Positions 24,678 through 41,000 of a DNA stretch of 64,000 nt are shown piece after piece. Position 1 is the first letter of the stretch. Each line of letters begins with the position of its first letter. The notes beneath the pieces are model-generated. The model ran no database searches, was not told the DNA's origin, and saw nothing but the letters and a program-made list of their open reading frames with translations. This DNA comes from Calothrix sp. PCC 7716 (lineage in GTDB: Bacteria > Cyanobacteriota > Cyanobacteriia > Cyanobacteriales > Nostocaceae): NCBI RefSeq assembly GCF_019977735.1, contig NZ_AP025019.1, forward strand, positions 248,001 to 312,000, given 5' to 3'. A program made the position numbers and the translations under genes.

Positions 24678-27383
24678 ATGCAAACAAATTTGCACTTTCC
24701 CAGTTGGCTAAAATCCTCACACGCAGTATATAGCAAATCATTAGGTGTCATGTTAGTCAAAGCTATTATCGGAAAAAAGTTAATAGCTCAGATAGGCACA
24801 GCGACCAAAGAAATTGAAGATTGGCATAAACTGATTAAAAGCGGTGACTTAATGCAAATCGAAACGGCGCCGATAACTAATAAAGTAAAGTATGGTTTTT
24901 TTGAAGCGTTTTTAAACAGATACAATTTGCTGTTACACGCATCAAAAATTAATAGTCAAAATGGTGTATTTGAACCAATACCTAATGACATTAATCCTAT
25001 CATCAAAAATGCGCTTATTCAAACAGGTATTACTAAACTTTATTCGCATCAAATTGATGCATGGAAGGCGTACACAGAAAGCAAGGATATTGCGTTACTA
25101 ACACAAACAAGCAGTGGAAAATCTCTAGCTTTTTTAATTCCAGCACTGCATGAGTGTTTAAATAACAACTCAGTCTTGATTTTCTTCAATTTAAAAGGTC
25201 TAGCACTCGACCAATCACGAAAAATCAAGGATATTGTTAAACATATACCAGTGGAATATCGTCCAAAAATATTAAATATTAATGGCGATACTCCTCGTAA
25301 AGAAAGGTTGCAACAGTATGTAAACACGCCTACAATTATACTCGCGACTCCAGACGCTTGGAACCACGATTTAGAAGCAAGCAAAGGCAACAATTTTCAG
25401 TTAATTCAGACTTTATTAAACATTAAGTTGGTTGTTATAGATGAGATGCATCTTTACAACGGTACTTTCGGTGCCCATTTTTCGTGGTTAAATAAAAGAA
25501 CACAGTTAAAGGTTGATATGCTAGGAGGTCAACCAGATTCAATTAAGTACATCTTTGCTTCCGCGACTATTGGTAATCCTAAACTGGTTGCATCTCTAAT
25601 ATCAAACCGTTCACAAGATAATTTAGCAGTTATTGAATCAAGCGGGGCTAAATCATTTGAAAAGCAATTTGTTTGTTTGAAAAATAGCAAAACATCTACT
25701 CAACATGCTGCTATATGTTTAGCAAAGCTAATTGAATTAGATGTCACAACAATTTGCTTTACTATTAGTAAAGCACAAAGTAAGGCTATTGCAGCAAAAA
25801 TCCGTCAAATACTCATCAACAAAGGAAGGAACGATTTAGCAAATAAATGTTCTTGTTTTTATGGCAGCATGAAACCAGCACAACGCTCGAAAATAATCAA
25901 CGGATTATTAAAAGGCAAAATCAAAGGTATAGTATCAACCAGCGCTCTAGAAGCAGGTGTTGATATTAGCGGAATTGAAGCGACCATCATCTGTAAATAC
26001 CCAGGAACAATACTAAGTGCGCGGCAGCAAATGGGACGTGCGGGTAGGCATAAAGAAGGATTAATCGTATTTATTCCCTCATCTTATAGCGTAATTGATG
26101 GATATTATGCAGATAATCCTAATAAGTTGTTTACAGATAAAGCTGAAATTGTTAGCTTTAACCAAAACTACGAATCCATAATTACCAACCACCTCATTGC
26201 GGCAGCAATTGAAAGTAAACCTACAGTTGAGATAATTGAAAAATACTTCGGTATTGCTGGGCTAGAAATTATGCATAAACTGTTGAATGAAGAAAAACTT
26301 CTTCCATCATTCAATAACCGAATTCAAGCCAATTTAAATCTGGGTTACTACCACAGTAATATTAAAATGCGTGGTGATAGCAGCAATGTTCAGTACATTA
26401 ATCAAGAAACTGGTGAGGAATTTGAGTCAAGCTCAACAAGTATCGCAATCCGCGAAGTGTATAAAGGCGCCATCTACCCAGCGCAAGACTTTGACGGACA
26501 GCCCGTAAAATACTGTGTAATAAGTCTCGACTTGGAAGAAGGAAAGTGCATACTGACACCAATCGATACTAATACAAACCTTTACACCGTATGCAAATCA
26601 GAATTAAAAATTAGTAAAATCAAGCAAGATAAGGATGAATCTAGAAATATAAAACTTGATGATACATCGTCATTGATTTTTAATCCTATTTGGGGACTAA
26701 TTAAAGAATCAGTGAGCGGGTATGACTTGCACAATAAAGAAATTAGGTGGACTTGCAACCGCAAAAAATGCCGTAACCATCACAAAAAACTTCACGCCAC
26801 ATACAAAACATGTCCTGCCTGCGGAAACTTATTAAGAGATATCGAGGTGGACGAAGTGGTTGAACAAGTAATTTATCCAAATCCTATCACAGTCGAATAC
26901 GAGGCGCCTGCAATCGAAGTATCAGTTTCAGGCAATGCTACGAACTATTTCAAAATTATTGTGTCAAATGCAAAAGAAACTATTAAAGAAAATATCCGCT
27001 TAGGTCATTGTGTCATGACCAAAGAAGTCGCTAATGTCTTTACATCTGAAGCGACACAACTCGTTGTACACACAATAGCACATCAAATTATGCTCGCATT
27101 ACCTTCAGTAAAACACGAAACAAATAGCAAGGATATTGAATTCGGATTAACCAAAAATTCAAAGCCTATAATCGGGTATTTCTTCGATACAACTGCTGAA
27201 GGCACAGGCGCCTGCCAAACTCTTATAGCTTACTGGGACTTGATTGTTGAAAAAGCAAACCTACTTGTAAATAGTTGTGATTGCAAACACGGGTGTAACA
27301 AATGCACCATAATACATCAATGCCCAGATGATAACGAATACCTTTTTAAAGACTTAGGAGTAAAACTTTTGCATAATGCATAA
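24678..27383 (+). CDS. MrfA/YprA-like superfamily 2 helicase with zinc cluster
   Basis: 901 residues. Helicase motifs in order: Q-like HQIDAW, Walker A TSSGKS, motif II VIDEMH, motif III SATIG, and motif V/VI STSALEAGVDISG with QQMGRAGR. A middle zinc-like site (CNRKKCRNHH...CPACG) is followed by a C-terminal Cys cluster CDCKHGCNKC...C, as in the DUF1998/MrfA C-terminal domain. MrfA is a 3'-5' DNA helicase acting in DNA repair in Bacillus. Here it opens the replication island and could unwind DNA for the primase-polymerase encoded next to it (inference). It is complete. Confidence 0.85.
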   Translation: MQTNLHFPSWLKSSHAVYSKSLGVMLVKAIIGKKLIAQIGTATKEIEDWHKLIKSGDLMQIETAPITNKVKYGFFEAFLNRYNLLLHASKINSQNGVFEPIPNDINPIIKNALIQTGITKLYSHQIDAWKAYTESKDIALLTQTSSGKSLAFLIPALHECLNNNSVLIFFNLKGLALDQSRKIKDIVKHIPVEYRPKILNINGDTPRKERLQQYVNTPTIILATPDAWNHDLEASKGNNFQLIQTLLNIKLVVIDEMHLYNGTFGAHFSWLNKRTQLKVDMLGGQPDSIKYIFASATIGNPKLVASLISNRSQDNLAVIESSGAKSFEKQFVCLKNSKTSTQHAAICLAKLIELDVTTICFTISKAQSKAIAAKIRQILINKGRNDLANKCSCFYGSMKPAQRSKIINGLLKGKIKGIVSTSALEAGVDISGIEATIICKYPGTILSARQQMGRAGRHKEGLIVFIPSSYSVIDGYYADNPNKLFTDKAEIVSFNQNYESIITNHLIAAAIESKPTVEIIEKYFGIAGLEIMHKLLNEEKLLPSFNNRIQANLNLGYYHSNIKMRGDSSNVQYINQETGEEFESSSTSIAIREVYKGAIYPAQDFDGQPVKYCVISLDLEEGKCILTPIDTNTNLYTVCKSELKISKIKQDKDESRNIKLDDTSSLIFNPIWGLIKESVSGYDLHNKEIRWTCNRKKCRNHHKKLHATYKTCPACGNLLRDIEVDEVVEQVIYPNPITVEYEAPAIEVSVSGNATNYFKIIVSNAKETIKENIRLGHCVMTKEVANVFTSEATQLVVHTIAHQIMLALPSVKHETNSKDIEFGLTKNSKPIIGYFFDTTAEGTGACQTLIAYWDLIVEKANLLVNSCDCKHGCNKCTIIHQCPDDNEYLFKDLGVKLLHNA

Positions 27384-27396
27384 ATACTCAAATTAC

Positions 27397-27424
27397 ATTT
27401 ACGATATTTTAAGGTCGTAAATTT
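27397..27424 (+). promoter_or_regulatory. Hairpin between helicase and primase-polymerase genes
   Basis: ATTTACGA / TCGTAAAT inverted repeat with a 10-base loop, just after the helicase stop. No T-tract is present; possibly an mRNA-processing or stability element. Confidence 0.5.
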
Positions 27425-27434
27425 AATATACGTT

Positions 27435-28391
27435 ATGTCAATACAACTTAAAAATTTAATTGAGGGATTATCCGAAATCCCTCCACATTGGTTAATTGTG
27501 CCAGCACGTATGAAAATGGCTTTGGGGAAAAGCTGGCAAAGTCAACCCTACTTAGCTAATCAATTACAAGAATTACTGATTCGGCAAAATGGGATATTAC
27601 GCATAGAAACAAAACATGGGTTACGGGATGCTGTACCAACAGGGTTTGGTTTGAAATGTGGCGCCAACAATAAAGAGTTCCTGCTAGCAATAGACTGTGA
27701 CGGTATAGAAGCGTATCGGCGAGTTATTGAAATCAATGAAGGAAAGCAAAAAATATTAACTAAAGTTGATGACTTAGAAGTTAAGCAGCTAGCAGAGAGG
27801 TATCTTCCACCGACTGTATCATTCACAAGTGGAAGAAAAAATCGGCGCCAATACATCTATAAAACCGACCTGTCCATGCAGCACCAACTTAAATCGCGAG
27901 TCATCGATGCGGGTAACGGGAGTCATCTTGAGCTGCGTGGTACAAACTTAAACTCCATACTCCCTCCCTCCTTGCATCCAAGGGGTAAGCAATACAAATG
28001 GGTATTAGGGAGTCCAAGAATTATACCTGTGGAAGAGGCGCCGCAATGGGTTATAAATCTAATGAACTACAAACCACGAAAACACACTAAATCACAGTCT
28101 ACATATCAATACAGTCAGATTGATGATACTCATGAAGGAACACCAGAAGAAATTAAAATTGCTTCCACCCTCCTAGACGTAATTCATCCCAGATATGCTG
28201 ATGATTACATTCCCTGGATAAAAATAGGTATGGCATTAAAATCGGTTAGCGATAAGCTACTTCCAGATTGGGAAGAATGGAGCCAATTGTCAGATAAGTA
28301 CGAATTTGGGTTATGTCCCTATAAATGGAGTACATTTAAAAACTTGAGATGCTCTATCCGCAGTTTGTATTATTTTGCTAATAATTCGTAG
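27435..28391 (+). CDS. Primase-polymerase (AEP/Prim-Pol) with PriCT-2 domain
   Basis: 318 residues. The N-terminal archaeo-eukaryotic primase fold is shown by the D-x-D metal motif in FLLAIDCDG (residues ~79-87) and the later nucleotide-binding strand LELRGTNLNSILPPSLHPRG. The normally conserved S-x-H motif reads TSGRKNRRQYIY, with Gln in place of His, a variant I have seen in cyanobacterial relatives. The C-terminal ~80 residues (YADDYIPWIKIGMALKS, WEEWSQLSDKY, KWSTFKN) are the PriCT-2 primase C-terminal domain. The enzyme would lay primers for the polymerase encoded downstream. It follows the helicase gene after about 50 bases. Confidence 0.85.
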   Translation: MSIQLKNLIEGLSEIPPHWLIVPARMKMALGKSWQSQPYLANQLQELLIRQNGILRIETKHGLRDAVPTGFGLKCGANNKEFLLAIDCDGIEAYRRVIEINEGKQKILTKVDDLEVKQLAERYLPPTVSFTSGRKNRRQYIYKTDLSMQHQLKSRVIDAGNGSHLELRGTNLNSILPPSLHPRGKQYKWVLGSPRIIPVEEAPQWVINLMNYKPRKHTKSQSTYQYSQIDDTHEGTPEEIKIASTLLDVIHPRYADDYIPWIKIGMALKSVSDKLLPDWEEWSQLSDKYEFGLCPYKWSTFKNLRCSIRSLYYFANNS

Positions 28392-28403
28392 TTAGTCAAT
28401 TCT

Positions 28404-29108
28404 ATGAACTACGTTATACGTTCATACCAAAACAACAGGTATGAGCGTATGAACCAATATTTCAACAGCGATGCTCTCAAAAATAAGATACCCAAACATA
28501 TTGGACAGATAATGCCTAACAATATTGATATTAGTGACATCAATTTTCAATTTAATACTGTAATGAAGCAGTTATCCTTTGGAATGTCAGTTGATAGCTT
28601 CATTGCAGAACATCCTATTAAAGAGTGGGTAGAATTTACTTCAACATACACTAATACGCAGGGTAATAAATACTACAACATTGATTTATCATACCAGTAT
28701 AGTAATGAAGTGTACTTAATTGAAAATTATGATTTCATTATCATTAATAACAACAGCGTAACAGCTTTTGATTGGAGTACTTCTAAAGCTCAAGATACCA
28801 AATGGCTAGAAAATGCTTGGAAAACTAAACTAAGGTTATTTTTACTCCCAGAAAATTTTGCGATAAAATGCGAAAACATATCTTTGCTATACTTATTTCC
28901 TAATAGCAAAGAAACGTGCCAGATTTGGTATAGCCTGAAACAACATAAAGCAAATTTCAAAACAATTGGTTCCACAGTCAATTCTGCAATTTCTAAACCA
29001 GTTACAGAAAAAATACCAGTGATGGAAAATCAATATTACCACACAGCATGGTTAACCGAAACATCAGTCAAGGAAGATTTCGACGCAATACCAGAAATTC
29101 AACTATAA
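28404..29108 (+). CDS. PD-(D/E)XK nuclease-like protein
   Basis: 234 residues, 12 bases after the primase gene. The core reads YDFIIINNNSVTAFDWSTSK at about residues 108-127, giving D-x(13)-D-W-S, close to the D...DWK pattern of Cas4/RecB-like PD-(D/E)XK nucleases, followed by a helix WLENAWKTKLRLFLL as in that family. The catalytic Lys is replaced by Ser or shifted to the nearby Lys, so activity is uncertain. Position in the replication island suggests a role in DNA end or intermediate processing. Confidence 0.65.
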   Translation: MNYVIRSYQNNRYERMNQYFNSDALKNKIPKHIGQIMPNNIDISDINFQFNTVMKQLSFGMSVDSFIAEHPIKEWVEFTSTYTNTQGNKYYNIDLSYQYSNEVYLIENYDFIIINNNSVTAFDWSTSKAQDTKWLENAWKTKLRLFLLPENFAIKCENISLLYLFPNSKETCQIWYSLKQHKANFKTIGSTVNSAISKPVTEKIPVMENQYYHTAWLTETSVKEDFDAIPEIQL

Positions 29109-29110
29109 CT

Positions 29111-29497
29111 ATGACACAGACAGCAACACAATTATTACCAAAACCAACACACGCTGAACAAATTGATGCAGAAGGTTGGAGTATCAACATGTATGGTACG
29201 CGCGCAGCTACCATCACAAACCCAGAAGGAAGACGAATTACTACATATTTTGGGTTTGATTCAAAGACAAAAGCATTACAGTTTGAAGAATGGCTTCTCC
29301 AATATAAATATTGCGAAAAATGTAAAGTACGCAAATCTAAAAGACTCAATACACGTTGGGAAATTAAGGTTTGGAAATGTCCAGCTTGGTTATTAGAAGA
29401 TTCAATAATTGCTGAAATCAAGAAAATTAACACAAGTATCAATCAATTTATGCTCTACATACAATTAAAAATAGGAGACAAAAATGGCGCGCAGTAA
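29111..29497 (+). CDS. Small hypothetical protein with CxxC motif
   Basis: 128 residues from ATG 29111, 2 bases after the preceding stop; an earlier in-frame ATG lies inside that gene. The N-terminal half is beta-rich (GWSINMYGTRAATITNPEG). YKYCEKCKVRKSKR with a later WKCPAWL gives three Cys that could bind zinc. It overlaps the next gene by 14 bases, indicating coupled translation. No family recognised. Confidence 0.75.
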   Translation: MTQTATQLLPKPTHAEQIDAEGWSINMYGTRAATITNPEGRRITTYFGFDSKTKALQFEEWLLQYKYCEKCKVRKSKRLNTRWEIKVWKCPAWLLEDSIIAEIKKINTSINQFMLYIQLKIGDKNGAQ

Positions 29498-29726
29498 AAG
29501 CAAAAAGCACGAACAACAAACCTGGAATAGTTACACGTCATATATATTTGAACCACACCCTGATTGTATGGTAACTGTCTATGGTAGTACAAATTGTAAA
29601 ACAATAGCTGTCCACGATGGTCAAGAAAAGTCAATCAGCTTAAAATTCTCGAAAAATACTGTTAGTTTATTGGAAAGTTACGTCCAAAAATTACAAAAAA
29701 TGTTAATTGAAATAAAAGCTAACTAA
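29484..29726 (+). CDS. Small basic hypothetical protein
   Basis: 80 residues, starting inside the end of the previous gene. Lys-rich at both ends with a beta-rich centre (MVTVYGSTNCKTIAVHDG) and a C-terminal helix. No family recognised. A hairpin with terminator character follows at 29732. Confidence 0.7.
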   Translation: MARSKSKKHEQQTWNSYTSYIFEPHPDCMVTVYGSTNCKTIAVHDGQEKSISLKFSKNTVSLLESYVQKLQKMLIEIKAN

Positions 29727-29731
29727 ATATA

Positions 29732-29770
29732 ATGGTTGTCTACATGGCAACCGTTAGTTTTCAATTTTAA
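29732..29770 (+). terminator. Probable terminator
   Basis: GGTTGTC / GGCAACC stem (7 bp, one G-T pair) with loop TACAT, followed by TTAGTTTTCAATTTT. It would end the helicase-primase-nuclease run before the next transcription unit. Confidence 0.6.
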
Positions 29771-29826
29771 TTACTTAATCGCTATGCGTAATCGAAGCGT
29801 AATTTAACAAAGCGAGTGCCTATACT

Positions 29827-30828
29827 ATGGCTATTAAAAACGGCAAAGCTCCATCAAGCATTGAAACCTCTCAAACTGATATATCTAATACTACAGCAAT
29901 TACAGGTAAACAACGCTCTGAAGAAGAAAGGAAAAAAGCAGCTAGTAAATATCTAGACCCTAAACACAACAAACCTATTAGCAGTGCGCCAATAACGCAA
30001 ATCATAAATATACAAGACCCAGAAAAAGTGGGATTGTTTATTAAAGAAAGTGCGCTTAATCGTATCAACTGGAAAGGTGAGAAACCAACATATACACACA
30101 CATTCTCTAGTGGGGAAGAAGAAACTGGTATATTACTTAAGTCGCCAAGATTAAATATTATACAAAAGAGTTACACTTTCCCTGAAGCACGAAAAGACTT
30201 AGACGATGGCACAACATCTGGTACTCTGTCCAACACCATACTTGAAACAAATGAAGGCAGAGAATTTTACAACGCAAACAAAGAAACGCATGTTCTAAGA
30301 AGGTTCTATTTCGGATTCGTGCTAGATGAAAACAACAATAACCTTCATGACATTCCTATTGCGATAACCATGAAAGGTGTACAGCTAGTAAGATTCGACA
30401 TAGCATTAGAGTCCTTCTATTCGGACATGGATACAGCATTCGCCAATTTTTATGGTGAAGATAGGTGCCCCAAAGACGATGAATTTCATAGATTATGTGT
30501 ATTTAACCCTACATTCGTCCCATCCCACGAACCTAAAACTGAACCAAAACCTTCAAAGCGTTCATGGGTAGCAATCATCGAAGATTATGAAGCACCAAAA
30601 CAAGATGGTAGTAATTTCCTAGACTTCTTTTGTGAATGGAAGGAAAAAGAATATGCCACTCTTGTCGCAACAAACCCTGACCTCACTATGAGTATCGGCA
30701 AAGCGGCGCCTATTGTAGAAGAGCATAATCGACTTGTAATGGAAGGTAAAATCGACAGAAAATTACTACCACCCGCAGCTTTAGTAGAAGCTGACATCGA
30801 AGAACTCGACAACGCACCTCCCTACTAA
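29827..30828 (+). CDS. Conserved cyanobacterial protein, candidate ssDNA-binding protein
   Basis: 333 residues. A disordered polar N-terminus is followed by a beta-rich central region (about 60-230) with TGILLKSPRLNII and RFYFGFVLDENNNNLHDIPIAITMKGV. The last residues are acidic and end EELDNAPPY, which resembles the acidic tip of bacterial SSB proteins (DDDIPF) that recruits replication partners. I believe similar proteins in cyanobacteria carry a DUF5895 label, but cannot check. Its place between the primase and the sliding clamp supports a single-strand-binding role; this is inference. A long-loop hairpin at 30837 separates it from the clamp gene. Confidence 0.6.
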   Translation: MAIKNGKAPSSIETSQTDISNTTAITGKQRSEEERKKAASKYLDPKHNKPISSAPITQIINIQDPEKVGLFIKESALNRINWKGEKPTYTHTFSSGEEETGILLKSPRLNIIQKSYTFPEARKDLDDGTTSGTLSNTILETNEGREFYNANKETHVLRRFYFGFVLDENNNNLHDIPIAITMKGVQLVRFDIALESFYSDMDTAFANFYGEDRCPKDDEFHRLCVFNPTFVPSHEPKTEPKPSKRSWVAIIEDYEAPKQDGSNFLDFFCEWKEKEYATLVATNPDLTMSIGKAAPIVEEHNRLVMEGKIDRKLLPPAALVEADIEELDNAPPY

Positions 30829-30835
30829 AAATTAA

Positions 30836-30877
30836 GTTGTCAGTAATTGTGCTATCACCCAAACGCGATTACTGACA
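30836..30877 (+). terminator. Hairpin between SSB-like gene and clamp gene
   Basis: TTGTCAGTAAT / ATTACTGACAA gives an 11-bp perfect stem around a loop of about 20 bases, followed by TAAAAATAC. Weak as a terminator because no T-run follows; it may limit read-through into the clamp gene. Confidence 0.55.
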
Positions 30878-30916
30878 ATAAAAATACACGACCCACATCA
30901 ATAACATTACCACAAA

Positions 30917-32233
30917 ATGAAAGTACAAATTAATCAAACAATACTCAGCGGCGCCATAGCATCCGCAATTTTGGCTATATCTAGCAAACCATGCACCCCA
31001 ATTACAGGGTGTATTATTATTGAAGCATCTACAGAAAACAAATTAACTTTAAAGAGTACCGATGCGTCATTTAGCATTAACCAAATAATTGATGCTGATG
31101 TAATAGAAGCAGGCACTGTTGCAGTATTGGGTAAAAAGCTTAATGACACAATTAACACGCTAACTGGCGAACTTACGCTTTCTGCTGATGAACAACATCT
31201 AACAATCACATACGAAACTGGACTATGCCGACTAGCTATCAATGAGAATTTAGATGAATTTCCACAAATCGAAAGCTCGTGTGATGACATAGAACCAACA
31301 AGTGTATTTTTACTATCGTCGTTAAAATTACAAAAAGCCATCGCAAGCGTTCTATATAGTACAGCTAATGACCAAACCAAAATGTTACTTACTGGTGCTA
31401 ACTTTAGCATTGCAGGTAATGAACTATACGCAACAGCAACAGATGGTCACAGACTAGCGCGCATCAAGTTATCTCTAGATAAAAACAAAGACAATGAAGA
31501 TTATGACAAACAATTTAACTTCACGGTTTCAGCAAAAATACTTACATCAGTCCTAAAAGTTCTACAACGGGCGCCTGAAAATAACGATTGCGTAATTCAT
31601 GTATTTGATAAAATCGTAGTGATGAATATGCCAGGAATTAAAATGGTATCTAGTTTATTGGATGGGCAATTTCCAGCTATTGAACGAATCATTCCTAACG
31701 AATTTATTTATAAATTTACGATTGAAAGGAAAGCTTTTTTAGCGACAATCAAACGAGTCGAAAACCTTGCTCACGAAAAAGATAAATCGGTGTTAATTGA
31801 TTTTAATGCCAATAATTGTAATGCTATAGTATCTACCGAATCGTCCGATTACGGAGAAGCTTACGACTCAATTAGCATAAAACCAGAGGCAAAAACAACG
31901 GGTAATATAAACATTGGATTCAATATTGATTACCTGTATCAAGCAGTTAACTCTATTGATACCGATGAAATAGTTATCAATTGCAATAACGGTGTAGGTC
32001 CAGTCGTAATATCTCCTATTGGTGGTTTAATCGAACAAACCGCACTCGTGATGCCACTGCAAATTAGACGAGGTAACAATACAGAAACACCGGAAACCCC
32101 TGTAGAAACGTCTAGTACACAAAAACCTGTTGAAAAGGAGGTGTCTCCAAAGAAAAGCAACAAATCTCTTACAAAAACAATATCTACCAAAAGTAAAAGT
32201 ACCACAGCCCGTAAATCAAAAGTTGCTGCCTAA
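30917..32233 (+). CDS. dnaN: DNA polymerase III beta subunit (sliding clamp)
   Basis: 438 residues; typical clamps have about 370. The three-domain clamp is recognisable: the N-terminal domain with LTLKSTDASFSI, the second with YATATDGHRLARIKL (the highly conserved TDGHRLA signature), the third ending in VISPIGGLIEQTALVMPLQIRR. After this typical C-terminus comes an extra tail of about 50 residues, first acidic and Pro/Thr-rich, then Lys/Ser-rich and basic. The clamp encircles DNA and tethers polymerases. Host cyanobacteria have their own dnaN, so this is a second, element-encoded clamp. It sits directly upstream of dnaX. Confidence 0.93.
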   Translation: MKVQINQTILSGAIASAILAISSKPCTPITGCIIIEASTENKLTLKSTDASFSINQIIDADVIEAGTVAVLGKKLNDTINTLTGELTLSADEQHLTITYETGLCRLAINENLDEFPQIESSCDDIEPTSVFLLSSLKLQKAIASVLYSTANDQTKMLLTGANFSIAGNELYATATDGHRLARIKLSLDKNKDNEDYDKQFNFTVSAKILTSVLKVLQRAPENNDCVIHVFDKIVVMNMPGIKMVSSLLDGQFPAIERIIPNEFIYKFTIERKAFLATIKRVENLAHEKDKSVLIDFNANNCNAIVSTESSDYGEAYDSISIKPEAKTTGNINIGFNIDYLYQAVNSIDTDEIVINCNNGVGPVVISPIGGLIEQTALVMPLQIRRGNNTETPETPVETSSTQKPVEKEVSPKKSNKSLTKTISTKSKSTTARKSKVAA

Positions 32234-32237
32234 ATAA

Positions 32238-32264
32238 TTATCCCCCCTTACTTAAAAGGGGGTA
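32238..32264 (+). promoter_or_regulatory. GC-rich hairpin between dnaN and dnaX
   Basis: CCCCCCTT pairs with AAGGGGG around a short loop. The run of C and G stands out in AT-rich DNA. No T-tract follows, so it may attenuate or stabilise rather than end the dnaN transcript. Confidence 0.6.
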
Positions 32265-32293
32265 TCAACACATTACACAATTCAAAATAGCAT

Positions 32294-33496
32294 ATGCACG
32301 AACCATTCCATCTCAAATACCGACCCCGAAACCTATCAGAAGTAATAGGGCAAGAAACCACAGTTACAACACTGCAAAACGCGGTTAACCAAAAGCGTAT
32401 TGCACCGGTTTACCTATTCACTGGCGCTAAAGGAACGGGGAAGACATCGACTGCTAGAATTTTAGCCAAAATGATTAATTGTTCAGCAGAAAAAGTACCA
32501 TGCAACAAATGTAATTCTTGTATAAGTATTAACAATGGTAATAACCTTGACGTAATAGAAATAGATGCAGCTTCAAATTCAGGTGTAGATGCCATGCGCG
32601 AGGTGATAGAACGCACTCAGTTTGCTCCTATTGGATTATGGAAAGTAATTATCATTGATGAATGTCATTCGTTATCCCACCAAGCATGGCAATCACTCTT
32701 GAAAACAACTGAAAGTCCGCTAAAGAATGTAACTTTTATATTCTGCACTACCGAAGAATCAAAAGTCCTATCCACAATTAAGTCACGCGCGCAAACATTT
32801 GAATTCAAACTTATTAGTGAAGATAAAATAGCATCAGCACTTGTAAGTATTGCAAACGAAGAACAATTTGATTTAGATATAAACACAGCAAAAGCAATAG
32901 CAACAGCAAAAAGTGGTCACATGCGCGACTCGCAAACTCTACTCGACCAACTATATACATTGGGTAAACCCATTACCAAAGATGTTATCGAAGAAGTTTG
33001 CGGTATAGTCAATGAATCAACTGCCTACAAAATACTCGTTTACCTTGGAACCGCAAATTATCAAATAGTCAAAATAATAGTTAGCAGCTTCATTGCGCGC
33101 GGCAAGAGTCCTCATAAAATCTTAACTGCGATAGTAGAAACCTGTATTAAATATATAACTCAGGCTGAACACCCCATCAAGCAGGTGTGGAACAACAAAG
33201 AGCTACAGCAAATTGTCACAACACTTACCAACAAAGAGCATCTCACCAAAGGTGAATTTTCAGATATTTGGGTACAAGCCATCTTAATGGAAATTGCGCG
33301 CGTTGAATTAAATGAAAGGTTTTTACCTATCTGTAGCCTTTGGAAATCAGAAAATGATGCCCTTGCCTGGGGTAAAGAACAGCTACCAAATCATGATATC
33401 GATGCTGCGTGGCAAAATCTGGAACGAATTAATGGTAAAAAGGCACCAGCCTGGATATATTATATAATTCGCGAACAAATAATAAATTTAGTGTAA
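32294..33496 (+). CDS. dnaX: DNA polymerase III gamma/tau-like clamp loader subunit
   Basis: 400 residues. It begins with the DnaX signature FHLKYRPRNLSEVIGQE, then Walker A GAKGTGKTS, a zinc-like module CSAEKVPCNKCNSC, Walker B IIIDECHSLS, and the sensor/arginine-finger segment TIKSRAQTFEF. It is gamma-length: the long tau extension that binds helicase and the alpha polymerase is absent, consistent with a replisome that uses a family B polymerase instead of PolC/DnaE. A strong terminator follows at 33504. Confidence 0.92.
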   Translation: MHEPFHLKYRPRNLSEVIGQETTVTTLQNAVNQKRIAPVYLFTGAKGTGKTSTARILAKMINCSAEKVPCNKCNSCISINNGNNLDVIEIDAASNSGVDAMREVIERTQFAPIGLWKVIIIDECHSLSHQAWQSLLKTTESPLKNVTFIFCTTEESKVLSTIKSRAQTFEFKLISEDKIASALVSIANEEQFDLDINTAKAIATAKSGHMRDSQTLLDQLYTLGKPITKDVIEEVCGIVNESTAYKILVYLGTANYQIVKIIVSSFIARGKSPHKILTAIVETCIKYITQAEHPIKQVWNNKELQQIVTTLTNKEHLTKGEFSDIWVQAILMEIARVELNERFLPICSLWKSENDALAWGKEQLPNHDIDAAWQNLERINGKKAPAWIYYIIREQIINLV

Positions 33497-33503
33497 TTGC
33501 AGT

Positions 33504-33545
33504 CAATCAAGTAATATATACTTGATTGATTTTCATTTTTATTGC
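33504..33545 (+). terminator. Intrinsic terminator after dnaX
   Basis: CAATCAAGTA / TACTTGATTG perfect 10-bp stem with loop ATATA, then ATTTTCATTTTTATT. It overlaps any start earlier than 33586 for the polymerase gene and so supports the later start. Confidence 0.85.
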
Positions 33546-33585
33546 GAAAGCATACGCATATAAAATAAAAATTTGCAATAACACA

Positions 33586-35412
33586 ATGAGTTATAATCCT
33601 AGAAACTTTGTCCATAGGGTCAAAAATGAATTAATTGTAGACGAAGATAAATTAAATATTTTTTGGAAATATCCTCGTAAAAAGAATCAGTGGAAACCCA
33701 GCAAGGAGATACCAGCATATGAAGGGTTAAGACGCATAGCAGTAGATATAGAGACTGCGGGACTCAACCCAGACAAAGACAGGATTCTTGCAATCGGCGC
33801 CTACAATGCACATAAGGATATTAAATATGCCGACATATTCATGGCGATAAATGAAAAACGATGTCTCAAACAGTTTGTAGAATTAATAGGAGATACAAAA
33901 CCAGATGTTATACTAACATATAACGGCATGTCATTTGATTTGCCGTTTATCATTAAAAGGTGTCAAATACATAAAATCAATCATCCATTCAGGGTGAGTA
34001 ACAAAAGTATATATATAGAGACTGCAAAACCATATGGACGAGATTCATTAACAATAAATCCTATTTATATACGTCCCAATATTGAACATGTTGATGTATA
34101 TATATGTGTATTAAGATGGGATAATGCAAGGCGCCTTCTTAGCGATAGCAAGTCCCTTAAAAGTGTAGCAATTGAATTAGGGTTACGCCCTGGCGCACGT
34201 TTAACATTGGAGTACCAAGACATCATCAAGTGTTGGGAAGAAGGTGAAGGTAGTAATGGATGGGAACAAATTAAAGAGTATCTACGATATGACCTTGAAG
34301 ATACTATACTAGTTAGCGACCACATAGTACCTACCTTTTACTATGAAAAATATATTGCTCCAAGTATGGGGTTGGGTGACTTAACCATCAAAGGTAATGG
34401 TACTAAATGGAGTGTAGGGCTGCAACTACAATACCCCAATAAAGTACCCAAGGCAGAACCTAAATATCAATTTAAAGGTGGCGCTACTTTTGCTTCTTCA
34501 GGTTTCTATCGAAAAAAAACAATTGCACTTGTTGATATTACAGGTATGCACCCCTGGATAATATGTACATACGGATTACACTCTAAATATGACGTAGACG
34601 AAATATCACTCGCAATGCTTGATTATTTTGGAGAAGAACGCGAACGGGTAAAGAGTATTACTGGATTAAGTAATAGACAAGATTCACTTAAAGGTATACG
34701 CAATTGCTACTATGGACTACTTGGTACTGGTAAACTTCCTTTCAATGATATGGTCGCCGCAGCATTGGTATGCGCGCATTCCAGAAAAATACTTCTTACC
34801 ATGCTGCAAATCATGGAAGAAACAGGTGCCACTATCCTTGAATACGACACCGATGGTATCTATTTCATGCATGAAAACCCACCATATATACACCAATTAT
34901 TAATGGAGAAATTGCCAGAGGGTATCAAAATCAAACTGGAAAAAGAGTCAAAGGCAATGTACATTCCTCCAAACGGATGCAAAAACTACCTGCTATGGAC
35001 TAACGATGGCAAAATCATCAAGAAAGGTTCGTGGACTAGTCGCGCCAAATCTAAAATCGAAAACCAGCACCCAATTGATTACCTCACGCACTTCCTCCAA
35101 GGATACAACGCCGCAGAGCAATACCACCAAGAACTGATTGATACTATTCAATCAAGTAATTACCCTATCAAAAATCTCATCGTCAGGCGCCGCATTAAAG
35201 AAGGAGAAATCGAATTACTCAAAATCGGCAAACCTAAAGATGTCATTTCCTACTACGTCGGGACAAACGGTATTTGCACTGAAGGCAATTACTCCAAGTC
35301 CTATTATACCAATTTAATCAATACTAAACGTAGCGAATTATTACAAATTATAGCACCTGAGAAATTAAGGGGTGGAACCATTGTAGAACAACTAAGCCTA
35401 TTTTCAACATGA
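33586..35412 (+). CDS. polB: Family B DNA polymerase with 3'-5' exonuclease
   Basis: 608 residues from ATG 33586. Exonuclease motifs: Exo I VDIETAGL (D54, E56), Exo II YNGMSFD (N113, D118), Exo III YDLED (Y235, D239). Polymerase: the FKGGA motif near 297-300, motif A VDITGMHPWII (D317), motif B KGIRNCYYG (K369-G377), motif C EYDTDGIYF (D421, D423). The catalytic residues are all present. It is compact for family B (usually over 750). The C-terminus reads EQLSLFST: QLSLF is a canonical bacterial sliding-clamp-binding motif, so it should run on the DnaN encoded here. It overlaps the next gene by 4 bases (ATGA). Confidence 0.92.
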   Translation: MSYNPRNFVHRVKNELIVDEDKLNIFWKYPRKKNQWKPSKEIPAYEGLRRIAVDIETAGLNPDKDRILAIGAYNAHKDIKYADIFMAINEKRCLKQFVELIGDTKPDVILTYNGMSFDLPFIIKRCQIHKINHPFRVSNKSIYIETAKPYGRDSLTINPIYIRPNIEHVDVYICVLRWDNARRLLSDSKSLKSVAIELGLRPGARLTLEYQDIIKCWEEGEGSNGWEQIKEYLRYDLEDTILVSDHIVPTFYYEKYIAPSMGLGDLTIKGNGTKWSVGLQLQYPNKVPKAEPKYQFKGGATFASSGFYRKKTIALVDITGMHPWIICTYGLHSKYDVDEISLAMLDYFGEERERVKSITGLSNRQDSLKGIRNCYYGLLGTGKLPFNDMVAAALVCAHSRKILLTMLQIMEETGATILEYDTDGIYFMHENPPYIHQLLMEKLPEGIKIKLEKESKAMYIPPNGCKNYLLWTNDGKIIKKGSWTSRAKSKIENQHPIDYLTHFLQGYNAAEQYHQELIDTIQSSNYPIKNLIVRRRIKEGEIELLKIGKPKDVISYYVGTNGICTEGNYSKSYYTNLINTKRSELLQIIAPEKLRGGTIVEQLSLFST

Positions 35413-36116
35413 AGGAGAATCAACTAAATAAAAAGCAAAAAGAGTGGTTGGAGGAGTTCCTAGAAACTCGGCCATATAATCATTATCGCGTATACACCAC
35501 AACTGCTGGTACGCGCACAATTGAAATTGAATGGAGAGAAGAAGCAAGCGTTACCATTCTAGATGACCACACATATATTGCAACTAAAATCAAACATAAA
35601 CTAGTGGTAGTGTTAAGGTTTAATGGGCACCCGATAAAAAGTGGTAAATATTCATTTGATATTACACCTCCGCAAAGGTATAGCGTTGAATATACTCTTG
35701 AAGGGCAACTAGCTCTAGATATCCCACAACATTACGAAATAAAGTTTCCTGAAAACCCTGTTACTGTTAAACATCGAATCAGGAAGCCAAAGAATAGAAA
35801 TCGGTTTGAACGCTCTTTACCAGCACAGCAACATAAGCTTACTTTAGACAAAGGCTCACAAGCATTACAAAATTTAAACTATCAAGCAACAGGAGCAATT
35901 AAAAGCGAAGATGAACTGTTACAAACAAGAAAAATAGGTAACATTCGATTACCAGACAGCATTATGAAAATGCTTCAAGAAAAAAGTGCAACAGAAGAAG
36001 AATTAATGTATTGCTCCATATTATTCAATTCAGGCAATGTGGAAGCAGTTCTTAACTACATCAACCAAATCGAACAATTCAGAGAACAAATCAAGAAGAC
36101 TGTATCTCGAAAATAA
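35409..36116 (+). CDS. Unknown protein translationally coupled to PolB
   Basis: 235 residues, ATG overlapping the polymerase stop by 4 bases. N-terminal half beta-rich (HYRVYTTTAGTRTIEIEW, KHKLVVVLRFNG), then a basic linker (KHRIRKPKNRNRFERS), and a helical C-terminus. The mix of a beta-rich domain and basic linker would suit a nucleic-acid-binding polymerase cofactor, but I recognise no family. The next gene, delta, follows after 77 bases containing a perfect hairpin (36122-36155). Confidence 0.75.
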   Translation: MKENQLNKKQKEWLEEFLETRPYNHYRVYTTTAGTRTIEIEWREEASVTILDDHTYIATKIKHKLVVVLRFNGHPIKSGKYSFDITPPQRYSVEYTLEGQLALDIPQHYEIKFPENPVTVKHRIRKPKNRNRFERSLPAQQHKLTLDKGSQALQNLNYQATGAIKSEDELLQTRKIGNIRLPDSIMKMLQEKSATEEELMYCSILFNSGNVEAVLNYINQIEQFREQIKKTVSRK

Positions 36117-36121
36117 TTAAT

Positions 36122-36155
36122 ATGCCAGTAGTTAAATCAATATAATTACTGGCAT
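36122..36155 (+). terminator. Hairpin before holA
   Basis: ATGCCAGTA / TACTGGCAT perfect 9-bp stem around a 16-base loop, just after the stop codon at 36116. No T-run, so it is only a weak terminator candidate. Confidence 0.5.
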
Positions 36156-36193
36156 TACATTCAATTACATGAACAGCATAACCACTACCGACG

Positions 36194-37123
36194 ATGAAAA
36201 CTTATATACTATACGGCGATGATACTTTTAATATCAATCAACGTATTAAAAAAATCAAGCAGCTAATCGATGATGCATGGTCATTCAATTACTGTAAAAT
36301 GCACGAAAGCACTACCCCAAAAGAGGTGATTAACGAATTACTCACGCCTCCCCTTGGTGGCGCCAACAAAATAGTTCATGTTGATAATGATTGCCTATTC
36401 AAAGATGCCGATAATACTAAAAAAGTGATTAAAGGTAAATTTGAGTTGATGCCAGCAGGCAATATACTTTTAATTACTACTACCAAAAAACCTGCGTTAA
36501 ATACAGTAGTAGTAAAAGAATTACTCAAATATGGTGCAATGGAAGAATATGCACTAATCTCTGAATGGGATATTTCCAAAATAACCTCATATATCAAGAA
36601 TGCTGCCACATCTAAAAGAGTAAATCTTAACGGTAAATGCATTGAGTATCTTGTTGATAATATCGGTGCCAATACTGAACTAATTGATTCGGAATTAAAC
36701 AAAATCAATACGTTTGGCAAAAATATTACTCTTGAGCAATTGCAACAATTAGTAGGCAGCAACCATAGTAATTCGGTTGAATTGGCAAAATATTGCCTCA
36801 ATGGTAATAGTGAAAAAGCATATACCAAATTAAATCAATTAAATGACCATCCGCTGCAAATAGTAGCAGCACTATACACCTGTTTCCGCACCTGGTTGGC
36901 AGTAAAGGCTGGCATCGATGAAGGGCTAAACAACACTGAAATTGCACTTTCTGGCGCCATAAACAATCCTAATCGTGTTTACTTCCTCCGCGAAGAAGTA
37001 CGCAATTGTTCATTGTCACGATTAAGAAACATATTATCAATCCTTACCACCCTTGAGTATGAATTGAAAACAGGTAAAAACACACTACCAAATCGGATTA
37101 TCGAAATCGCATCCTATGAGTAA
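36194..37123 (+). CDS. holA: DNA polymerase III delta subunit
   Basis: 309 residues. The start YILYGDDTFNINQRIKKIK matches the delta subunit (typical FLLYGDE...), followed by an AAA+-like fold without functional Walker motifs, a helical domain with LVDNIGANTELIDSELNKI (typical of HolA: ...DLRQLANELEKL), and the C-terminal collar domain (HPLQIVAALYTCFRTWLAVKA). Delta opens the clamp ring during loading. It overlaps the delta' gene by 8 bases, so the two are made together. Confidence 0.88.
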   Translation: MKTYILYGDDTFNINQRIKKIKQLIDDAWSFNYCKMHESTTPKEVINELLTPPLGGANKIVHVDNDCLFKDADNTKKVIKGKFELMPAGNILLITTTKKPALNTVVVKELLKYGAMEEYALISEWDISKITSYIKNAATSKRVNLNGKCIEYLVDNIGANTELIDSELNKINTFGKNITLEQLQQLVGSNHSNSVELAKYCLNGNSEKAYTKLNQLNDHPLQIVAALYTCFRTWLAVKAGIDEGLNNTEIALSGAINNPNRVYFLREEVRNCSLSRLRNILSILTTLEYELKTGKNTLPNRIIEIASYE

Positions 37124-37928
37124 TAACTTTAGCAAGGTTATTGGTAATAAATTAGCAATTAGTTCGCTAAAAAATATTATCAATAAAGACAAATATGCAC
37201 CTGCATACTTATTTAGTGGGGTATCGGGTATAGGCAAGTTTGAAGCAGCATTTATATTTGCTTGTTGCCTCGTAGCTTGTCATACAGAAATACTAATCAT
37301 TGAAAACTTTGAAGGTGCCACGAGTATTAAAATCGAACAAATGCACGAGATGATAAGTTGGTGTGCCACTAAACCTATAATTGGTACAAGAAAGACAGTC
37401 ATTATCGATGCCAAAGATGGTCTATCCGAAAAATGTAGCAATGCACTATTAAAAACACTAGAGGCGCCTCCCTCTGGAGTAACAATAATAGTGGTATCAA
37501 ATAGTGAGATGCTACCGACCATCAATAGCAGATGTCACCACATACCATTTAACAGACTAACTTCGTCTGAAGTTAGCGAGGTGTTAAATAATCTAGGGCA
37601 TACAAATGTAAACGGCGCCATAATTGATGCTGCACAGGGTAGCCCAGGTAAAGCACTACAAATCTTCAACGAGTGGGACAACATTTCAACTTTTGTAGAA
37701 GACTTATCCACCTTACCCAATTCAATAACACAAGCACTATCTATTAGTACCACTATTACCAAACTTGAATATCAGTCACAAGTAGTACTGCTACAAGTAC
37801 TAACCTTAGTGTGGTGGAAGCAATACAATGTTGCGTTGCTGGGCAAGGCTACCACTGCGATGACTTGCCTAAAAGCAAAGCTAAACCCGCGCGCAGTATG
37901 GGATACCTTACTTACAACAAATCAATAA
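37116..37928 (+). CDS. holB: DNA polymerase III delta' subunit
   Basis: 270 residues, shorter than the usual ~330. The start FSKVIGNKLAISSLKNII and YLFSGVSGIGKFEAA are typical of HolB, the latter being a P-loop-like GxxGxGK ending in Phe rather than Thr/Ser, so ATP binding is doubtful, as in many delta' subunits. LLKTLEAPPSGVTIIVVSNS and TINSRCHHIPF (the SRC motif that supplies an arginine finger to DnaX) are conserved. The zinc module is missing. With DnaX and delta it completes a clamp loader. Confidence 0.88.
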   Translation: MSNNFSKVIGNKLAISSLKNIINKDKYAPAYLFSGVSGIGKFEAAFIFACCLVACHTEILIIENFEGATSIKIEQMHEMISWCATKPIIGTRKTVIIDAKDGLSEKCSNALLKTLEAPPSGVTIIVVSNSEMLPTINSRCHHIPFNRLTSSEVSEVLNNLGHTNVNGAIIDAAQGSPGKALQIFNEWDNISTFVEDLSTLPNSITQALSISTTITKLEYQSQVVLLQVLTLVWWKQYNVALLGKATTAMTCLKAKLNPRAVWDTLLTTNQ

Positions 37929-38058: not shown

Positions 38059-41000
38059 ATGCGTACTATTGAAATCGAATCAAATCTTAAAACTACTCCC
38101 AAACAACGTTGGGAAAATAATAAACAAGCGATAATAACACTTCATCAGTTGCGAGCGACTGGAAAACAGCCAACCCGAGAGCAATTAATAAAACTCGCAT
38201 CATTTAACGGGTGGGGTAGTTTATCGCGCGTATTTAATCTGAACCCAACCGGATGGGAAGCAGTAGCACAACAGGAACTCAAGGAATTATTAGGTGAAAG
38301 GGAGTACAACAATGCAGCCGCCTTAACCCTAAATGCTTACTACACAGACCCAGCAATCATCCGCAGTATATGGGATGTAATAGTTAAAGCAGGATTCAAG
38401 AATGGTAGAGTTCTTGAACCGGCTTGCGGGACAGGTTTATTCTTCGGTGGAATGAAACCACACTACCTCAACAAATCGGAATTATTTGGAGTAGAAATCG
38501 ACCCAACATCTGCGGCTATCGCACAATATTTATATCCCGACGCGGTTATACACAACTCACCATTCGAGAAAGTACAATTTCCTGATAATTATTTTGACCT
38601 TATAGTATCTAACGTACCTTTTGGCAGCTTAGGAATCAGCGACCCAAGCTATGACCACCTTGGACTCAAGATACATAACTACTTTCTTGCTAAATGTAGT
38701 GATTTAGTGCGGGTTGGGGGGTTGATAGGCATCATTACTTCGTCATACACACTTGATGCTCCAGGTAGTCAAAGATTCCGCGAGTGGTTAAGCAAAAAAC
38801 TTAAGCTAATTACAGCTTTTAGGTTACCTAACACAGCATTCAAAGAAGTTGCAAATACAGAAGTCACAACCGATTTCCTGTTATTCCAAAAAGTTGAGGC
38901 GCCAACTGACAAAGAAGACCTACCCAGTATTCCAAACTGGATTTATAGCGACAAAGTTATAATTGAACCTCAAAATTGGCAAATTGACGGTAAAGGAGAA
39001 CTATCAGAAGCGTACCTATCAAATTATTATCGCAAAGAATTTGATGGTAGAAAATTTGATTTGCAATACCAAAAGCTGATCGACGATAAACCAAACGATG
39101 AAAGGTTCGCACAATTTAAGGAGAAAATCTATACTGGTGCCCAACAATTAATTGGCGCCCCATCAGTAAACAAACTCTACGGTGACGGATTCGCGTTGCT
39201 CAGTGATGGTCGAGATGTTCTTGCTGCAATTGATGCCATCAAGATTGATAAATGTTATCAGCCTAGCAACTCCAAAGACAAAGTTATTGTAATTCCACCC
39301 GAATTACAAAATGTCAAAGACATGGCATTTTGCTTGCACGAAGGGAGGGTATACCAAAGGCAAGGTTCCAACCTCGTAAAAGTAAAAAATGTTGAAATCG
39401 AGCGCATCAAATCATTTTGGCGCCTGCGTGAAGCCACTATCGAATGTCTAAACGCACAATCAACTAATGATAATCTTGAGCCATATCAACAGCGACTCAA
39501 GCAAGAATATGAAAGCTTTATCTTTACATGGGGTAAAGTAAACGAAAAAAGAAATACTGATAAGCTTGACAGAGACCCAAATTACTACCTAATAAGAGGA
39601 CTTGAAAAGCCTAAATCATCAACGCTTGCCGATATATTCCACAAGCGAGTATGCTCCTACAATGTAGCACCGACAAGTGCATCAAACATACACGATGCAA
39701 TTTCAATATCTTTGACAAATACGGGCAAGTTTGATATTTCCTATGCTAGTAAGTTGCTAAACAAGTCAGAATCGGAAGTTATTCAACTACTTGAAGCTGA
39801 AACTCTTGCTTATTTTAATCCGGAAACTCAAAATTGGGAGCTAAAAGATGCATACCTTAGCGGTAATGTTGTTGAGAAGTTAACACTTGCCAATCAGCAC
39901 TTGCTTGCTCGCAATGTTGAAGCGCTCAAAAGAACACTGCCATTACCTATGCTACCTCCAACATCAAGCAACATCAAGTTCGCTTGCATTGAAGCACTTG
40001 GCATAGAATGGGATACGCTTTCAAAGCACAAGCAAGAAACAATCCTCAAAAAGCATATCAACGCATCAATCGGCGCCGGTTGGATTGATAGTAAATACTA
40101 CCAGCAATTCGCGCTTGAAGTATTGAAAATTTCAACAACAATAAGGAAAGTTGATACCGCTAACCTTTCCTGCTGGACTGTAAAAGGTTACTCACGCGAC
40201 GTAATCGAGTATGGAACACAGCATCTCAATAGTTTAGAGATATTTCGTTATACCCTCAATCGGCAAGAACCGCGTGTATCTTTGTATGACGATGAGAAAA
40301 AGTTAGATATTAATGCTTCCAACAAAGCAACAGAAGCAGCACGCACTAAAGCTAATCTAATCAAGAAAGCTTTTGCTGATTGGATATGGTCAGATAAAAC
40401 AAGAAGTATAGAACTATGCCTGCATTATAACCAACACGTAAATGTTTACGTTGACCGCCAGTACGACGGGTCGTATCTAACATTTCCAGGCATGAACCCA
40501 GCAATTAAGCTCAAGAAGCATCAAAGAAATGCAGTAGCCCGAATGATTCAAACTGGCGCCACCTTCCTTGGTCATCAAGTTGGGTTCGGCAAAACATATA
40601 CGCTAATTGCAGCAATTATGGAATGTCGCCGTTTGAAACTAGTCAAGCGTCCCATACTTGTTGCACTAAACGGTACTGAGCAGCAAATATACGATGATTG
40701 GAAGAAGCTATACCCTACTGCTAACGTATTATTGCTGCCTAACTTGAATGCTGATAACCGTAAATACTTCTCTGCTGCACTTGCTAGCGCTGACTTTGAT
40801 GGAGTAATACTAACGCACTCTCAGTATTTCTCACTCGCATTATCCAAAGAGTATCAGCTTGAATTCCTTGAAAAAGAAAAGTCAATATTAAAAGATTACC
40901 TGAACAGCGTTAAATCTGATGGTGACAAAGGCGCCGCAAAACAAATACAGCGAACGCTAAGGACAATCGAAAACCGTATATACAAAGTAACAAACTCTGA

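Follow-up and report, generated by a model that had tools for sequence, protein, structure and literature searches.

Conserved linkage of a family B DNA polymerase with a bacterial sliding clamp and clamp loader on a plasmid-like contig of Calothrix sp. PCC 7716

We report a replication gene cassette in a 64,000-nucleotide stretch of Calothrix sp. PCC 7716 DNA, hereafter termed the window (C2:248001-312000, G000), which is part of a 384,612-base contig (C2) in a cyanobacterial genome of 12.37 Mb. On a single strand and within 13 kb, the cassette carries genes for a family B DNA polymerase (PolB), a bacterial beta clamp (DnaN) and a full clamp loader (DnaX, HolA and HolB), together with a Prim-Pol, an MrfA-like helicase, a DUF5895 protein, a conserved protein of 234 amino acids (aa) and a second conserved protein, here called orf235 (Table 1). 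We consider it probable that the cassette specifies a plasmid-encoded PolB holoenzyme working on a bacterial clamp, which adds to the host replicase rather than replacing it. This reading draws on the genes themselves, their linkage in relatives, the intact motifs and conserved C-terminal tail of PolB and the intact peptide-binding cleft of DnaN; from these sequences the encoded proteins are predicted to interact physically as subunits of one assembly, and may be used in copying the plasmid. Bacterial clamps and loaders are regarded as servants of DnaE or PolC, and the cassette offers a natural test of whether a bacterial replicase tolerates exchange of its polymerase.

Conserved linkage of polymerase, clamp and loader genes

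A scan of one genome per species for PolB relatives returned 77 loci, corresponding to the best 80 of 180 matches. Presence of the other cassette genes was called by tblastn with the window proteins (E <= 1e-4), which strongly diverged genes may escape, and cross-hits between DnaX and HolB were settled by score. Linkage was counted over the 35 loci from cyanobacteria that have a close PolB (L009-L043), a set that excludes L004-L006, L047, L048, L050 and the non-cyanobacterial loci. All four clamp and loader genes lie on the PolB strand in 29 of the 35 loci, with identical order in 26, and their linkage to PolB exceeds chance; conservation of the gene set in relatives, which had been set beforehand as a test of the initial annotation of this DNA, is hence borne out. 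Matches were obtained for DnaN in 31 loci, for DnaX and HolA in 32 each, for HolB and orf235 in 30 each and for DUF5895 in 29. Three incomplete loci (L024, L033 and L039) are on contigs that stop 0.8-2.3 kb past PolB, and gene order differs in the Phormidium and Argonema cassettes. Pairwise ratios of nonsynonymous to synonymous substitution rates (n=36) were 0.07-0.28 in 29 comparisons, 0 in one and saturated in six.

Among plasmid records, 26 (17 cyanobacterial, 9 from Deinococcus) gave a PolB relative, as did 17 phage records, and a HolA match is present in all 17 of the cyanobacterial plasmids. The closest plasmid record by PolB is the circular 394.7-kb plasmid1 of Calothrix NIES-4105, in which cassette genes and order are identical to those of the window. 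By this match, contig C2 is plasmid-like. It encodes ParA and ParB (C2:103119-104845) and a match to single-stranded DNA-binding protein (C2:101111-101440; 33% over 110 aa); its ends show no overlap, so that circularity is unsupported, and guanine-cytosine skew along the contig indicates no clear origin.

HolA matches extend to 40 plasmid records, 23 of which gave no PolB hit, a distribution that weighs against replacement of the host replicase. Four of these PolB-less plasmids also carry DnaX, with DnaN beside DnaX in two, and searches of the four whole plasmids returned no DnaE match and no PolB, the PolB search having no positive control of its own. DnaE matches were likewise absent from the cassette plasmids L004-L006. 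Groups of dnaN, dnaX and holA on records that gave no PolB or DnaE match are seen at L161 (Anabaena cylindrica pANACY.01) and L164 (Oscillatoria pOSC7112.01), where HolB is not annotated in the stretch. As a separate observation, loci L021 and L043 have PolBs that are 90% identical, as against 42% for HolA and 50% for HolB. Recombination thus seems to carry PolB from one cassette to another.

The polymerase and its C-terminal peptide

The window PolB matched the Pfam exonuclease domain and, weakly, the polymerase domain (E 0.017), with motifs A, B and C present. The acidic residues of Exo I, II and III and motifs A, B and C (DTD) show no variation across an alignment of 38 close PolBs from cyanobacteria, with the exception of Y/F at one position of motif B. 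Translation probably starts at ATG 33586 and not at TTG 33526, because relatives begin at the former position. Pairwise ratios of nonsynonymous to synonymous substitution rates (n=36) were 0.07-0.28 in 29 comparisons, 0 in one and saturated in six.

The same 38 proteins carry a C-terminal QL[S/T]LF, followed by ST in the window PolB. Positions Q, L, L and F are invariant, the middle residue is S in 33 and T in 5, and the preceding positions are variable; the 38 sequences include many close relatives and are hence not 38 independent events. The set excludes L004 (the same record as L047), phage L007, Deinococcus L008, the broken L042, the Armatimonadota-type L044-L046 and all loci from L048 on, including the distant cyanobacterial L048 and L050. 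According to the excerpted text of PMC3716654, the beta-clamp consensus is QL[S/D]LF, Pol II of Escherichia coli uses QLGLF, and the structure of the Pol II peptide on the beta clamp has been solved; the excerpt of PMC5731819 describes shorter clamp binding upon alteration of the Pol II clamp peptide. We confirmed that the last five residues of E. coli Pol II are QLGLF. The window PolB is like Pol II in being a family B enzyme with a clamp peptide at its C-terminus, but differs in length (about 608 aa versus 783 aa). Pol II of E. coli is a proofreading enzyme whose gene is chromosomal and which borrows the clamp and loader of Pol III.

We also looked for the tail in phage and plasmid relatives, taking in five of the seven cyanophage, two of the ten Salinibacter phage and three of the nine Deinococcus plasmid records. 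It is absent from the PolBs of all of these, as it is from three IMG/VR loci (L087-L089). The PolB of Nostoc phage N-1 shares 35% identity with that of the window, and the 41.7 kb of N-1 that were read, unlike the cassette, contain no clamp or loader match. Nostoc phage PolB was placed in group G3 in the excerpted text of Kazlauskas et al. (2020, PMC7544198); through its 35% identity to the N-1 enzyme, the window PolB is a candidate member of that group.

The clamp and its loader

Three Pfam beta-clamp domains and a PDB beta clamp match identify the window DnaN, which is identical to the E. coli protein at L155, T172, G174, H175, R176, L177, P242, R246, M362 and P363, a residue list that we take to represent the E. 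coli peptide-binding pocket. These cleft residues are largely kept in the host clamp as well, and R246 is replaced in many Nostoc relatives. Most aligned cassette DnaNs have a basic C-terminal extension, which is absent in L034 and L036. The window DnaX contains the Pfam AAA+ and lid domains, and its SRC position reads SRA, with the arginine kept. HolA matches the Pfam N- and C-domains of delta; HolB has the Walker A form without S/T that delta' typically carries.

The initial annotation regarded the lack of a tau extension in DnaX as expected if coupling to DnaE or DnaB is not needed. The observation holds for the window: the tau-like C-terminal domain PF23007 was not found at E <= 0.1 in the DnaX of the window, L011 or L019, nor was it seen in L164. 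The loss does not follow from PolB use, as the domain scores above the Pfam cut-off in the PolB-linked DnaX of L034 (Phormidium), as it does in host DnaX, and below it in the PolB-linked L006 (Gloeothece, just under) and in the PolB-less L161, L162 and L163. A tau-like domain is thus retained in some PolB-linked DnaX proteins; an association of tail loss in DnaX with PolB use, when tested, fails, and tau loss is no rule for PolB-linked loaders. In 8 of 11 aligned PolB-linked DnaX proteins a distinct C-terminal segment (AWGKEQLP ... INGKKAPAW in the window, 33299-33493) replaces the tau-like domain, and the window tail has no above-threshold match to other open reading frames (ORFs) of the contig.

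In a tree of 38 DnaX proteins, built with a simple model, drawn with midpoint rooting and including some long-branched outgroups, the 12 cassette rows group with DnaX of the host and of same-order and same-class cyanobacteria, on a split whose support (90/94) does not reach the star threshold. One starred set (99/99) unites nine of the cassette rows, and L034 and L036 (Phormidium and Argonema) fall in another (99/96) with five chromosomal-type rows and the pLBX row. The starred branches require at least two label changes, so that cassette DnaX is not one clade, which suggests that the DnaX beside PolB has been replaced at least once.

The host chromosome (C1) encodes its own DnaN, DnaX, HolA and HolB, the DnaX being an intein-bearing protein of 872 aa, and the sole DnaE match in the genome is also on C1. 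The host Pol III holoenzyme shares its clamp and loader families with the cassette but combines them with DnaE and a tau-type DnaX, where the cassette has PolB and a window DnaX with no detected tau-like domain. A second, decayed cassette at C1:7.557-7.564 Mb contains matches to HolA, HolB and orf235; in the 39 kb read there, DnaN gave no match and DnaX none apart from the HolB cross-hit.

Further predicted clamp binders

The pattern QL[SDTGAN]LF occurs in 4 of the 318 mechanically derived ORFs of at least 100 aa on C2, where 0.6 would be expected. Besides PolB, its carriers are the 1731-aa methyltransferase-helicase fusion downstream of the cassette, an 828-aa DEAD-type helicase and a 1076-aa SNF2-type helicase. 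The fusion tail STKQLSLF is kept in Calothrix (STKQLSLFDL) despite a differing preceding stretch; it is absent from a distant relative of the fusion on Leptolyngbya plasmid pLBX.

Two peptides of orf235 follow the conserved patterns QL[S/A/C][L/I]x[L/I] and QxxL[P/T][L/F], and Q100, L101, Q141 and L144 are the same in all 16 sequences compared. The two peptides resemble QLVLGL of Pol IV and the designed QTSLPL of epsilon, six-residue clamp peptides described in the excerpt of PMC5731819. Both fall in a low-confidence stretch of the structural model that has no predicted secondary structure. For the whole model (mean predicted local distance difference test score, pLDDT, 70.5; predicted template modelling score 0.35; no PDB match at E <= 0.001) just the per-residue confidence and secondary structure were used, and these weakly. 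We infer from the peptides that orf235 may bind the clamp at two sites.

Proposed function and alternative explanations

In the holoenzyme reading, DnaX, delta and delta' would form a loader that puts the plasmid beta clamp onto primed DNA. PolB would dock on this clamp through its C-terminal QLSLF, comparable to QLGLF of E. coli Pol II, and would then copy DNA processively with proofreading, while orf235 and the downstream methyltransferase-helicase would bind the same clamp through similar peptides. The likely use would be strand synthesis on the plasmid, primed by Prim-Pol, in replication and/or after conjugal transfer, with the helicase and other factors coming from the host. The five genes and orf235 constitute a small defined set for rebuilding the hybrid in vitro. 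A more far-reaching version, which we advance tentatively and on balance doubt, is that the cassette is a second replicase of large conjugative plasmids, in which a bacterial clamp and loader serve PolB instead of DnaE, orf235 is a new two-site clamp-binding subunit and the parts have been re-paired more than once via host-type DnaX; if true, a bacterial-type replicase can exchange its polymerase.

Several observations weigh against the holoenzyme reading. Loci L029 and L032 have no clamp genes within 10 kb, for which a contig edge is not responsible, and in L042, on a 4.4-kb contig, PolB is broken and the 3.3 kb before it give no DnaX match. The distant PolBs of cyanobacterial loci L048 and L050 (25-26%) have no clamp or loader match; the other distant PolB loci and viral contigs have none either, bar one weak DnaX hit (L053). 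Of 386 cyanobacterial genomes drawn evenly, 10 were PolB-positive (the Calothrix genome included), five with a full-length gene and five with partial or stop-bearing copies only. In plasmid C of Trichormus variabilis ATCC 29413, PolB is interrupted by ISAva7, with DnaN, DnaX, HolA and delta' annotated as intact, so that PolB seems dispensable at least there, and in the decayed cassette on C1 PolB is split by an insert with a 478-aa open frame. The tail itself is found away from clamp genes: PolB of the phage-like IMG/VR contig L086 ends in QLSLFS with no clamp match within 10 kb on either side, and three Armatimonadota-type PolBs end in QPSLF, so that the motif does not require a linked clamp. 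Finally, the tail supports clamp binding by PolB and not the choice of clamp, because the host clamp has the same cleft; it is motif evidence of this kind that points to binding of the plasmid clamp.

One alternative, which we regard as rather improbable, is that PolB uses the host clamp and loader, leaving those of the plasmid to a different partner such as host DnaE on plasmid DNA, the genes being mere backbone neighbours. The likeness of host and plasmid clefts, the PolB-less HolA plasmids (including the four that gave neither PolB nor DnaE match when searched whole) and the split PolB of plasmid C beside otherwise intact annotated genes would all fit this explanation, but HolA is retained in every one of the cyanobacterial PolB plasmid records, and DnaX proteins of more than one tree origin are still found beside PolB. 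An improbability of much the same order attaches to a repair or translesion kit, in which an MrfA-like helicase and a Pol II-like polymerase on a dedicated clamp would provide damage tolerance to plasmid or cell. The resemblance of the PolB tail to that of Pol II, the repair role of B. subtilis MrfA and the apparently tolerated loss of PolB on plasmid C are in its favour; a repair polymerase able to use the host clamp, however, needs no full loader, and the proofreading residues are intact in all 38 PolBs.

Slightly better placed, though still unlikely in our estimation, is a strand-synthesis kit for conjugation, whereby Prim-Pol primes and PolB on the clamp makes the second strand after entry of single-stranded DNA, with no need for an unwinding helicase. 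TrbI-like and coupling-protein conjugation genes are located just upstream of the cassette in the window, 15 of the 26 PolB-positive plasmid records are typed conjugative, and a primase is present on a contig that has no DnaB match. Against such a kit, its proteins would have to be made before or right after entry, and an MrfA-like helicase match is present in 16 of 16 cassette genomes.

The initial annotation had spoken of a hybrid replisome that replaces the host replicase core. The linkage and the clamp-type tail of PolB support that part of it which joins a family B polymerase to a bacterial clamp and a full loader on one element. A full replisome is too strong a term, there being no DnaB match on the contig: genome-wide, DnaB_C gave 13 matches, on C1, C3 and C4, and none on C2, in agreement with the earlier remark that a DnaB-type helicase was unseen. 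Replacement is likewise too strong in view of the missing DnaB, the PolB split by an insertion sequence and the 23 of 40 HolA plasmids with no PolB hit. That the MrfA-like protein fills the place of a replicative helicase is a guess: its gene is annotated as split around IS701 in Tolypothrix, and a relative lies near PolB-less genes on pANACY.01.

Relation to known systems

Replisomes of the T4 type are similar to the cassette in that polymerase (family B), clamp and loader are all encoded by the element, but their parts resemble archaeal and eukaryotic ones (excerpt of PMC7544198), whereas those of the cassette are bacterial DnaN and DnaX/HolA/HolB. PolB was reported by Chenard et al. (2016, PMC4916379, excerpted text) in two phages (A-1 and N-1) and three cyanobacterial plasmids, from Cyanothece PCC 7424, Nostoc PCC 7120 and A. 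variabilis; the words 'clamp' and 'dnaN' are absent from the main text of that article. The genes dnaN, dnaX and holA of such plasmids are already named in annotation, and no description of the PolB-clamp-loader set was found among the open-licence PMC papers listed, including the excerpt of PMC5987646. As far as our searches go, the parts have been named and the principle is known, and the pairing and the docking peptide are newly described.

Upstream genes and other features

The co-oriented ORFs of the initial annotation were recovered at the same positions, and Pfam matches and motifs uphold seven of its eight gene labels (MrfA-like, Prim-Pol, DnaN, DnaX, PolB, delta and delta'). Frames overlap by a few bases at PolB/orf235 and HolA/HolB.

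Table 1. Cassette genes, predicted clamp peptide and downstream neighbour, in window coordinates
Feature	Position	Strand	Evidence or remark
MrfA-like SF2 helicase, 901 aa	24678..27383	+	Pfam DEAD, Helicase_C, MZB (MrfA Zn-binding)
Prim-Pol with PriCT_2, 318 aa; helicase domain not found	27435..28391	+	Pfam
Conserved 234-aa protein	28404..29108	+	No Pfam match; alignment
DUF5895 protein	29827..30828	+	PF19247; usually directly before DnaN
DnaN beta clamp, basic C-terminal extension of ~55 aa	30917..32233	+	Pfam; PDB beta clamps; peptide cleft kept
DnaX, 400 aa, Walker A and zinc cysteines intact; tau-like domain not found	32294..33496	+	Pfam, PDB
Family B DNA polymerase, exo and pol motifs intact, C-terminus EQLSLFST	33586..35412	+	Alignment; ORF open from TTG 33526
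QLSLF codons, predicted PolB clamp-binding peptide	35389..35403	+	Residue 622 of 628
orf235, conserved protein with two clamp-motif-like peptides	35409..36116	+	QLALDI, residue 100; QHKLTL, residue 141
HolA, clamp-loader delta	36194..37123	+	Pfam; PDB delta; aligned with host delta
HolB, delta'	37116..37928	+	Pfam; Walker A without S/T after K; SRC motif kept
Methyltransferase-helicase fusion, 1731 aa, ending STKQLSLFEL, predicted clamp binder	38059..43254	+	Pfam

The remaining label, a PD-(D/E)XK-like nuclease at 28404-29108, was not borne out by Pfam, which gave no hit, or by alignment: of the eight rows shown, six have D at the proposed second acidic position, Calothrix has N and Gloeothece H, and the canonical +2 position after it is never a lysine. 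The predicted fold of the DUF5895 protein is of low confidence (mean pLDDT 52) and has no PDB match at E <= 0.001. MrfA of B. subtilis is a repair helicase. The MrfA-like matches of the 16 cassette genomes were sought anywhere in the genome; in that of L029 the gene is in two frames, in Tolypothrix PCC 7712 two annotated pieces surround IS701, and on Anabaena pANACY.01 the relative is near PolB-less clamp and loader genes.

Elsewhere in the window, a plasmid-encoded sigma-70 factor is found downstream of the cassette (52700-53656), and Leptolyngbya pLBX has one between dnaX and holA. A NADAR-domain protein (54944-55831) and a DpdA-family protein, whose name suggests deoxypurine DNA modification (61801-62679), are also encoded. 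On the minus strand, opposite to its neighbours, 18679-20940 encodes a 753-aa membrane protein with a C-terminal part that by eye is spermidine-synthase-like. In L086 (8223-17785), an ORF that by eye is DnaB-helicase-like adjoins PolB, with two cytosine-methylase-like ORFs, also recognized by eye, downstream. The replication cassette of a Tolypothrix PCC 7712 plasmid has an annotated ubiquitin-like conjugation set inside it (E2 ligase family D, Mov34/MPN and ThiF; L005:9950-12116), and a ThiF gene is also present upstream of holA on Leptolyngbya pLBX (L163).

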